Of a DNA stretch of 64,000 nt, positions 6,814 through 52,604 are shown piece by piece. The stretch is taken from the NCBI RefSeq assembly GCF_000155735.2, contig NC_020908.1, positions 4,773,501 through 4,837,500 of the forward strand, written 5' to 3'. Every line of letters begins with the position of its first letter. Positions within the stretch are counted from its first letter, which is position 1. This DNA is from Octadecabacter arcticus 238 (lineage in GTDB: Bacteria > Pseudomonadota > Alphaproteobacteria > Rhodobacterales > Rhodobacteraceae). The notes beneath the pieces were generated by a model. That model was not told the origin of the DNA, searched no databases, and saw nothing but the letters and a program-made list of their open reading frames with translations. A program made the translations under genes and the position numbers.

Positions 6814-6916
6814 GGTGGTGTATCTCCTTTGGTTGGGCTGCTGTCTTCCAACAACAATTCAACCAGATACGCCGCCAACCTTCAAACCACTCAAACACCA
6901 GATTCAGTCATAGCTC
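6085..6916 (-). mobile_element. IS256 remnant, copy 1 (right-hand 60%)
   Basis: The right 832 bases match the intact IS256 at 8608–9994, ending in the same terminal repeat (GAGCTATGACTGAATCTGG read inward). The other ~555 bases are gone, replaced at the break by the IS5 element. Its right end cuts an IS200 left end. Confidence 0.92.
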
Positions 6917-7011
6917 CTTCGCGGGGTCTTAAAAATAAGAGGGAAGATTATAGTACATTACGCTAAAGCGGACCGGCTGGAAGCCGGTGGCTTTAATCCC
7001 GTTTGTGGAAA
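6917..7011 (-). mobile_element. IS200 left-end remnant
   Basis: 95 bases that match, on the minus strand, the left end of the IS200 elements at 49.8–52.5 kb. They include the small hairpin ACCGGCTTCCAGCCGGT and the start of the long stem before tnpA. The base before its left end is preceded by TTAC on the minus strand, the same target as the other copies. It is cut by the IS256 remnant, so tnpA is absent. Confidence 0.88.
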
Positions 7012-49376: not shown

Positions 49377-49588
49377 AATATGTGGATTACTGCATAAATT
49401 GGCTTGATATCTGAAAGTCAGCAATATGATATTGCCGCTTTAGATCAAAAATCTCCGTGCATTTTGCCCGTCGCCATCCCAATAATGGCCAGCCTGCGTG
49501 AGGCAGCAACGGGCTCGAATCTGGCTTGCGAAAATGCAGAGAATTACCCCGTTTCGAGGTCGGCTTCCAACGTCACGGACCGGCTGTC

Positions 49589-49620: not shown

Positions 49621-49836
49621 TTGGTGTCGAATGACACAAACGGCCCATAGCTACTGGCGCAGGTGGAACAAACGCGTATTGACGCAATTATCGTTTCTCA
49701 CCGCTACAGCGCAATAAATCGTGCATATGCTTCATCGCCAAGTAAGGTTTTTAACTGGCGATTTTCCACGTTTTACTTTCCACAAACGGGATTAAAGCCA
49801 CCGGCTTCCAGCCGGTCCGCTTTAGCGTAATGTACT

Positions 49837-49905
49837 ATAATCTTCCCTCTCATTTTTAAGACCCCGCAAAGCAGTAAGGGTCTTAAAAATGAGAGGGAAG
49901 ATTAT
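49837..49905 (+). promoter_or_regulatory. 28-bp perfect stem covering the tnpA ribosome site
   Basis: The block from ATAATCTTCCCTCTC to AAGACCC (49837–49864) is exactly inverted at 49878–49905 with a 13-base loop. The right arm contains the ribosome site (GAGGGAAG) and the first two bases of the tnpA ATG. As an RNA hairpin it would block translation; such control is known for IS200. The same stem recurs in elements C and D. Confidence 0.9.
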
Positions 49906-50323
49906 GATCTATTCCACAGGAAGCCATACCAAATTTTATCACCGATTTCACGTCGTCTGGACAACAAAATACCGATACAAAGTTATGCGCGGTGAGATGC
50001 GTGAGCGTATCCGTGAAATCATTATCCAAACATGCCAAGAACTTGGCGTGCATATTGAGAAGGGCGTATTGTCGACCGATCACGTCCACATGTTCATATC
50101 GGTCCCGCCTCAGATAGCATTGTCAAAGGTGATGATGCGGATCAAGGGACGCTCGTCTTATAAGATACAGCGCGAGTTTCCCGAACTGCGCAAACGGTAC
50201 TGGGGCCAGCGGTTTTGGGCTCGCGGATTTTTCTCAACAACCAGCGGCAATGTCACTGACGCTGTCATACTTCAGTATCTTGAATTACATTCAAAAAGGG
50301 AACCTACCGGCGTCAGCCGGTAG
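49904..50323 (+). CDS. tnpA: IS200 transposase (HUH Y1), element A
   Basis: 139 residues from MIYSTGSHTKFYHRFHVVWT, the start placed at the edge of the regulatory stem. A single-strand DNA transposase: HUH motif in STDHVHMFISVPP, one catalytic Tyr in NVTDAVILQYLELH. No accessory tnpB. Intact; it differs from element D by a few residues (HIEKGVL/HIETGVL, IIQTCQ/IIQLCQ). Confidence 0.95.
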   Translation: MIYSTGSHTKFYHRFHVVWTTKYRYKVMRGEMRERIREIIIQTCQELGVHIEKGVLSTDHVHMFISVPPQIALSKVMMRIKGRSSYKIQREFPELRKRYWGQRFWARGFFSTTSGNVTDAVILQYLELHSKREPTGVSR

Positions 50324-50705
50324 TCGTTCAGTTTCCACAAACGGGATTAAAGCCACCGGCTTCCAGCCGGTCCGCTTTAGCGTAATTTACTTTCCACAAA
50401 CGGGATTAAAGCCACCGGCTTCCAGCCGGTCCGCTTTAGCGTAATGTACTATAATCTTCCCTCTCATTTTTAAGACCCCGCGAAGCAGTAAGGGTCTTAA
50501 AAATGAGAGGGAAGATTATGATCTATTCCACAGGAAGCCATACCAAATTTTATCACCGGTTTCACGTCGTCTGGACAACAAAATACCGATACAAAGTTAT
50601 GCGCGGTGAGATGCGTGAGCGTATCCGTGAAATCATTATCCAAACATGCCAAGAACTTGGCGTGCATATTGAGAAGGGCGTATTGTCGACCGATCACGTC
50701 CACAT

Positions 50706-51791
50706 CTTAGGCTCAAGTTTCAAATGCAACACTCAGAGCCCTTTGGGCATAGGATGTTGTGATGGACATACGAAGCAAGCACCTCAGCAGCGAGGACCGT
50801 GGCGTGATATTAGCCGAGCATAATAGGGGCAGCAGTCAGCGGTTGATCGGCCAGCTTTTGCATCGCCCGGCGAGCACGATCTGCCGTGAGCTGGCGCGAG
50901 GTCGGCAGGAAGACGGCAGCTATTGCCCGCAAGCGGCGCGGCAGGCCTATGATGCCCGGCGTGCGCGCTGCCGCCGCGAGCGCAAGCTTGTGGAGGGGAG
51001 CGATCTTTATCGTTTCGTTCATGGCAAGCTCGTACATCTGCACTGGTCGCCTGAGCAGATTGCGCAGAGACTGCGTCTCATGAAGCCTGATGATCCATCC
51101 GCCCATGTGAGCCATGAGACCATCTATGCCGCGATTTACGCGCAGCCACGTGGTGGGCTGAAGGCGGCGATGATCGAGGCGTTGCGTCAAGCGAAGCCTA
51201 AGCGTGGGCTCAAGCGCAGGACAGCGGCGGGCAGTGCTATGGTCCCGGAATCATTGCGCATTATCAACCGCCCTGAAGAGATCGAAGCGCGACTGGTACC
51301 AGGCCATTGGGAGGGCGACCTCATCAAGGGCGCATTCAATCGCTCGTCAGTGGGGACCTTGGTCGAGCGCAAGACACGCTTTGTCATTCTTTGCAAAATG
51401 GACGGCAATGGGGCCGAGGCCGCGCTCGACAGCTTCACCCGCCAGATGAGACGACTACCCGCTGCTTTGCGCAAGAGCATGACCTACGACCGCGGCTCCG
51501 AAATGGCCTGCCACCCCGAACTCGCCAGACGGTTGAAGATCGATATCTGGTTCTGCGATCCGCATGCGCCTTGGCAGCGTGGCAGCAACGAGAACACCAA
51601 CGGACTGCTGCGTCAGTACATGCCCAAAGGAACTGACCTGAACGGTGCAAGCCAAACATGGCTCAACGACGTTGCAAACCTGATGAACAACCGTCCGAGA
51701 AAAACTCTCGGTTGGAGAACACCCGCTGAAGCCATGGCCGACGAAATCGCGGCCTTCAAATCAACCGTTGCACTTGATGTTTGAATCCAAG
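50706..51791 (+). mobile_element. IS30 family element, 1086 bp
   Basis: Inverted ends CTTAGGCTCAAGTTTCAAAT (left) and CTTGGATTCAAACATCAAGT (right, inward), both followed by GCAAC. Flanked by the 3-base duplication CAT (50703–50705, 51792–51794). Confidence 0.95.
50759..51784 (+). CDS. IS30 family transposase
   Basis: 341 residues. N-terminal helix-turn-helix pair (LSSEDRGVILAEHNRG, QRLIGQLLHRPASTICRELA), then the DDE domain: VPGHWEGDLIKG (D), SMTYDRGSEMACH (D), HAPWQRGSNENTNGLLRQYM (E), and RKTLGWRTPAEAM near the end, all signature IS30. A start one codon later is equally possible. Intact. Confidence 0.96.
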   Translation: MMDIRSKHLSSEDRGVILAEHNRGSSQRLIGQLLHRPASTICRELARGRQEDGSYCPQAARQAYDARRARCRRERKLVEGSDLYRFVHGKLVHLHWSPEQIAQRLRLMKPDDPSAHVSHETIYAAIYAQPRGGLKAAMIEALRQAKPKRGLKRRTAAGSAMVPESLRIINRPEEIEARLVPGHWEGDLIKGAFNRSSVGTLVERKTRFVILCKMDGNGAEAALDSFTRQMRRLPAALRKSMTYDRGSEMACHPELARRLKIDIWFCDPHAPWQRGSNENTNGLLRQYMPKGTDLNGASQTWLNDVANLMNNRPRKTLGWRTPAEAMADEIAAFKSTVALDV

Positions 51792-52102
51792 CATGTTCAT
51801 ATCGGTCCCGCCTCAGATAGCATTGTCAAAGGTGATGATGCGGATCAAGGGACGCTCGTCTTATAAGATACAGCGCGAGTTTCCCGAACTGCGCAAACGG
51901 TACTGGGGCCAGCGGTTTTGGGCTCGCGGATTTTTCTCAACAACTAGCGGCAATGTCACTGACGCTGTCATACTTCAGTATCTTGAATTACATTCAAAAA
52001 GGGAACCTACCGGCGTCAGCCGGTAGTCGTTCAGTATAATCTTCCCTCTCATTTTTAAGACCCCGCGAAGCGGTAAGGGTCTTAAAAATGAGAGGGAAGA
52101 TT

Positions 52103-52522
52103 ATGATCTATTCCACAGGAAGCCATACCAAATTTTATCACCGATTTCACGTCGTCTGGACAACAAAATACCGATACAAAGTTATGCGCGGTGAAATGCG
52201 TGAGCGTATCTGTGAAATAATTATCCAATTATGCCAAGAACTTGGCGTGCATATTGAGACGGGCGTATTGTCGACCGATCACGTCCACATGTTCATATCG
52301 GTCCCGCCTCAGATAGCTTTGTCAAAGGTGATGATGCGGATCAAGGGACGCTCGTCTTATAAGATACAGCGCGAGTTTCCCGAACTGCGCAAACGGTACT
52401 GGGGCCAGCGGTTTTGGGCTCGCGGATTTTTCTCAACAACTAGCGGCAATGTCACTGACGCTGTCATACTTCAGTATCTTGAATTACATTCAAAAAGGGA
52501 ACCTACCGGCGTCAGCCGGTAG
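52103..52522 (+). CDS. tnpA: IS200 transposase (HUH Y1), element D
   Basis: 139 residues, intact, with HUH in STDHVHMFIS and the Tyr in AVILQYLELH. Preceded by the same 28-bp stem (loop CGCGAAGCGGTAA here). The coding part is whole, although its left end is separated by element C. Transposase from A or D could act on any of the ends in trans. Confidence 0.94.
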   Translation: MIYSTGSHTKFYHRFHVVWTTKYRYKVMRGEMRERICEIIIQLCQELGVHIETGVLSTDHVHMFISVPPQIALSKVMMRIKGRSSYKIQREFPELRKRYWGQRFWARGFFSTTSGNVTDAVILQYLELHSKREPTGVSR

Positions 52523-52604
52523 TCGTTCAGTTACGTCTAAGCCTGTCTAACGCACTGTTCAGTTTTAAAATGCGCTTTTCATCAGCTGTCATGCGGCTTG
52601 CCAT

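Follow-up and report, generated by a model that had tools for sequence, protein, structure and literature searches.

A 64,000-nt window of the Octadecabacter arcticus 238 chromosome (NC_020908.1) contains three copies of a 555-bp IS200-type insertion sequence (IS), here designated A, C and D, together with a single IS30-family element (Table 1). The three IS200-type copies share one orientation; A is uninterrupted, C is nested inside D, and the IS30 element lies in turn within the tnpA gene of C. The first-pass annotation of this DNA had described three such copies related by exact arithmetic, and both its coordinates and its sums prove correct to the base. That reading had been staked on the two pieces of D joining as one element, and it stands, because the pieces do join (59 + 496 = 555 bases) and are collinear with the family consensus, from which they depart by 10 substitutions. 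The span of C (50391-52034) is likewise accounted for by 555 bases of IS200-type sequence, the 1086-bp IS30 element and a CAT duplication. Assignment of the inserted element to the IS30 family is based on its transposase profile, the short CAT target duplication and its related ends; the insertion into the tnpA of C that had been noted earlier is confirmed. As the IS200-type element recurs throughout the genome at approximately 97-100% identity, the nested pattern is far beyond what chance would produce.

Table 1. Features of the pile-up, with positions numbered from the first base of the window.
Feature	Position	Strand	Basis or remark
TTTAC target, D first user and A second	49772..49776	+	Paralogous empty site has TTTCC at the same place
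Element A, uninterrupted 555-bp IS200-type IS	49777..50331	+	Sequence comparison
AAAG, proposed left guide, beside left-end hairpin (about 49800-49816)	49794..49797	+	IS608 analogy
Perfect 28-bp stem-loop, 5' of tnpA	49837..49905	+	Fold
tnpA of A, 144 codons from mechanical start; alternative start 49904 possible	49889..50323	+	Y1_Tnp PF01797 4.9e-39; NF033573 4.4e-41
GAAC, proposed right guide, adjoining right-end hairpin 50304-50323	50300..50303	+	IS608 analogy
TCAG, right cleavage word	50328..50331	+	
Element D, left piece, 59 bases	50332..50390	+	
TTTAC within the left end of D, from G56T at 50387; target of C	50386..50390	+	
Element C, left piece, 315 bases including one CAT	50391..50705	+	
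IS30-family element, 1086 bases	50706..51791	+	CAT duplication at 50703-50705 and 51792-51794
IS30 transposase open reading frame	50759..51784	+	NF033563 1.1e-89
Element C, right piece, 3-base duplication + 240 bases	51792..52034	+	
Element D, right piece, 496 bases	52035..52530	+	
tnpA of D, open reading frame	52088..52522	+	Translation and profile searches

Ends, copies and target of the IS200-type element

The product of tnpA matches the profiles PF01797 and NF033573 well above their cut-offs, which identifies it as a Y1/HUH transposase of the IS200/IS605 family, and HVH followed downstream by a tyrosine is visible in its translation. At 555 bp the element leaves no space for tnpB, and it is a tnpA-only member of this family. 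Subterminal hairpins are found on the top strand at both ends (z -3.3 at the left, -5.2 at the right). By analogy with IS608, as described in PMC5934647, we propose that AAAG would serve as the guide for TTAC at the left end and GAAC as the guide for TCAG at the right end; when the DNA of the right end is folded on its own, GAAC is paired with GTTC.

Searches of the genome with three probes, corresponding to the whole element, its left end and its right end, revealed at least 46 copies or fragments, of which at least 44 are chromosomal and 2 reside on contig C3. In the published table for O. arcticus, transposable elements of all kinds account for 1175 genes and pseudogenes, of which 40 belong to IS200/IS605 (PMC3646047). 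Individual copies display additional changes. Judging from their substitutions, L029, L036 and L038 carry the 13-base loop (element bases 89-101) of the stem-loop preceding tnpA in reverse-complement form, and the same loop, as read by eye, is also flipped between L145 and L150 of another genome of the genus (G006). These flips probably represent recurrent inversion between the arms of the perfect 28-bp stem. In L030, the right end is broken after base 529 by an end resembling that of the IS30 element found in C. Four copies of the element are split at TAC words by what is probably another IS, whose ends resemble TCAGGTCAATTCAGGCGCGGGAGTA; the breaks fall after base 511 in L032 and L033 and before base 57 in L034 and L036. 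A different sequence, common to both, divides L035 and L038 at base 482.

TTTAC is found directly before 36 of the 39 left ends that were read, a set that includes C and omits D and L037b, each of which is preceded by the right end of another copy. The exceptions are TTTAT (L023), CTTAC (L029) and TTGAC (L132). The base directly after the right end is a T in 29 of the 30 copies readable at both ends and in 7 of 7 further right ends (36/37 overall), whereas across both strands of a 400-kb chromosomal sample this base follows just 46 of 413 TTTAC sites. The preferred target is therefore the six-base sequence TTTAC/T, in which the slash marks the point of insertion, and not TTAC alone. Thus, the TTAC-targeted insertion described in the first-pass annotation holds insofar as TTAC precedes the copies, but the counts on the left and right flanks reveal the word to have been incomplete. 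A 556-base element carrying a terminal T was also considered, and inspection by eye indicates that it fails at two tandem junctions described below, at the junction of C within D, and at a paralogous empty site. Because all of these fit an element of 555 bases, the T following the right end is assigned to the target, with the nested case removing the one-base ambiguity in the boundary and showing that the target comprises six bases. Insertion 3' of a fixed word without target duplication is seen at both the empty paralogue and the nested copy.

Reuse of one target and entry into a sister copy

The arrangement can be explained by ordinary peel-and-paste insertion of single-stranded DNA, with a chemistry presumed from that of IS608, in which the element would be inserted 3' of TTTAC/T on the lagging-strand template. 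The target word would be neither duplicated nor destroyed by such a reaction, and TTTAC would remain in the left flank. Since the element begins with T, TTTAC/T would be rebuilt at each left junction, and a resident copy would keep offering the site at its left edge. Same-site tandems would thus be expected, and a later copy using the same site must sit upstream of the earlier one. This is the placement observed for A, which lies directly upstream of D and would have inserted at the TTTAC site that D had used earlier, supporting the previous proposal that D is the older of the two and that A entered at the same TTTTAC. A second tandem, in which L006 lies directly upstream of L037b, is present on the minus strand at C1:4555673-4556703. 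The copy lying upstream is nearer to the consensus in each tandem, with 3 differences in A versus 10 in D, and none in L006 versus 9 in 476 in L037b. A literature search on tandem insertions of IS200/IS605 elements, which was narrow and left subscription journals mostly uncovered, returned no report of this case.

A tandem of this kind could also be produced by duplication, through slippage or unequal crossing-over, or by joint arrival of A and D as a dimeric circle, and the A/D junction (TTCAG/TTTCC) is indeed the sequence expected where the right and left ends of a circle are joined. However, 11 of 555 positions separate A from D (compared with 10 between C and D, and 3 between A and C), the two carry variants common to different sublineages, and they are not each other's nearest relatives among the copies examined. 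G92A and G97A, for instance, are held by A in common with L031, and A, C and D fall into separate sublineages. The second tandem likewise joins an undiverged copy upstream to a diverged copy downstream. The divergence of A from D and their separate sublineages therefore argue against duplication, and we regard such an origin as very improbable. Another explanation holds that resident left ends attract insertions, so that sister copies would constitute a preferred and targeted hot spot. Among the 44 chromosomal copies listed there are two tandems at shared sites and one case of a copy entered by another, which might be taken to favor this idea, and if TTTAC is treated as the sole target word, two or more same-site pairs would be suggestive of enrichment (P = 0.049). 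The signal vanishes when TTTAC/T is used, as 44 random insertions over the roughly 300 TTTACT sites on one chromosome strand are expected to yield about 3.2 same-site pairs (P for at least two = 0.82). Two tandems therefore require no special attraction, and landing beside an IS is likely to be better tolerated than landing in a gene. We consider a true preference for sister copies decidedly unlikely; the first-pass annotation was fair in calling the locus direct evidence of repeated insertion, including into a sister copy, but special targeting of such copies is not needed to explain it.

The site at which C entered D is distinctive among the copies of the element. Bases 55-59 of the left end read TGTAC in 40 of the 41 covering left ends examined (37/38 and 3/3), whereas D carries TTTAC as a result of a substitution, G56T (window position 50387), that is absent from every other copy examined. 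Among 49 pieces of the element, TTTAC on either strand is present only in the left piece of D, where it coincides exactly with the left junction of C. As D continues with a T, G56T created a complete TTTAC/T out of TGTAC/T, and C would then have landed at this new site, with IS30 later breaking its tnpA. The earlier claim that C inserted into the left end of D after TTAC is thus supported, with the qualification that the site owes its existence to a substitution found in D alone. The sequence gives no direct view of whether the mutation or the insertion came first, and C might instead have entered D at an ordinary TGTAC that was altered afterward. However, TGTAC is absent from all 39 left flanks, and it would be a coincidence for a chance mutation to recreate the exact target word afterward, making this sequence of events extremely improbable. 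We infer that G56T preceded the insertion of C. The identity of C to L003, L008, L012 and L016 is consistent with its recent arrival.

As D lost G56 and was struck exactly there, it is conceivable that this G is kept because it protects the family from self-insertion, given that TGTAC/T at bases 55-60 is one mutation away from the element's own target; we view this speculation as unlikely. The absence of TTTAC from the consensus element was rejected as a signal, as only about 0.06 TTTACT words are expected in 555 bases when both strands are counted.

In our assessment, the pile-up very probably reflects ordinary insertion of three tnpA-only IS200/IS605 copies at TTTAC/T, with A reusing the site of D, C entering at the G56T substitution, and IS30 entering C afterward. 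What can be read is that D preceded both A and C, and that C preceded IS30. The sequence of D, A, C and IS30 proposed at first pass is therefore sound in these three steps, but the placement of A before C is not readable, and these two copies may have arrived in either order. To the initial description, the present analysis adds the six-base target, the target-making substitution in D, the second tandem, and this correction regarding A and C. Three small jumping-gene copies lying on and inside one another make a tidy and exceptionally readable record of a known mechanism, in which the target outlasts each insertion and copies of an IS can therefore stack upon one another.

Orientation and empty sites

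The orientation of the element is consistent with replichore in 42 of the 44 chromosomal copies listed (binomial 1.1e-10), such that its top strand corresponds to the lagging-strand template. Agreement remains at 39 of 41 listed copies when tandem and nested partners are omitted, and at 37 of 39, by subtraction, when L039 and L040 are omitted as well. The latter two copies share a common right flank with L027 (98-100% identity over 60 bases) and have different left flanks, and the three may therefore derive from one insertion rather than from independent events; the right-hand piece of a single insertion seems to have been carried elsewhere. For these counts the origin was placed at mnmG (4.709 Mb) and the terminus at a dif-like site (G000 C1:2058678; 2.0587 Mb), a word located near the switch of both element orientation and GC skew. 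The dnaA gene, at the beginning of C1, stands apart from the skew switch. In 20-kb samples taken away from the switch regions, the stretch running from 5.04 Mb through 0 to 1.94 Mb has positive GC skew in 7 of 9 cases, and that from 2.18 to 4.72 Mb has negative skew in 10 of 11; across the window and as far as 4.97 Mb, values are mixed or close to zero. The skew thus broadly agrees with the chosen markers, though it is noisy. Of the two exceptional copies, one (4780414, minus strand; window 6914-7011, minus strand) is a 98-base left-end fragment that follows CTTTAC and is truncated by what is probably another IS, and the second (2077245, plus strand) lies 19 kb beyond the dif-like site. Insertion into the lagging-strand template has been reported for IS608 and ISDra2 (PMC5371812, PMC6006769). 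The shared direction of A, C and D follows from this replication-linked bias, whose strength gives the element value as an illustration of replication-coupled transposition in nature.

A paralogous locus of the same genome (C1:5149834-5150198) has the two flanks of the pile-up joined with no element between them, at 83% identity on the left and 94% on the right. This locus has TTTTCC in place of the TTTTAC of the window, a single mismatch, and small gaps occur further left; it therefore supports a precise join but does not represent the exact pre-insertion allele. The left flank has matches in 12 of 60 relatives, none extending beyond about 125 bases, and no empty site was found among them, while the right flank matches none of 18 other genomes of the genus. 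In a metagenome-assembled genome of the Rhodobacteraceae (L059), the upstream gene is held in common and the match stops at 49516, short of the site. Among the genomes searched, with one genome per species, there is no strain carrying D alone or A with D. The comparison with related strains suggested at first pass was thus answered in part, by an empty paralogue within the same genome rather than by the right flank in other members of the genus.

Comparison with known systems

Members of the IS200 group carry a single Y1 transposase gene with a strong stem-loop ahead of tnpA, and both features are present in the element described here, although IS200 proper is longer than 555 bp. The element resembles IS608 (ISHp608) of Helicobacter pylori, according to the accounts cited, in its insertion 3' of a TTAC that is kept in the left flank, its subterminal hairpins and the letters of its proposed left guide, AAAG (PMC5934647), and in its use of the lagging-strand template (PMC5371812, PMC6006769). 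It differs from IS608 in having no tnpB between its ends and in its longer target, TTTAC/T. The right cleavage word and guide also differ, being TCAG with a proposed GAAC in our element and TCAA with GAAT in IS608, as does the +1 base, which is T at 36 of 37 right ends here and C in about 70% of cases for IS608 (PMC5934647). A five-base target with a strong +1 preference is found in ISDra2 of Deinococcus radiodurans, for which TTGAT/G at about 90% is cited in PMC5934647; the letters of the two targets are different.

Closer relatives are found in G006, where 10 loci (7 on the minus strand and 3 on the plus strand) match at 70-76% DNA identity and have similar ends. The pattern can be seen in their left ends at 3 of 10 loci, and in one of these the guide is unclear. 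In contrast to the element in O. arcticus, the right ends of these relatives are mostly TTCAC with a proposed guide of GATG or GAGG. This right-end pattern can be read at 7 of 10 loci, of which 6 combine GATG or GAGG with TCAC and one (L149) combines GATG with TCAA, against pairing. Thus, the last base of the putative guide and the last base of the cleavage word tend to co-vary in the sequences compared, the predicted pair being C:G in the element described here, G:C in G006 and T:A in IS608.
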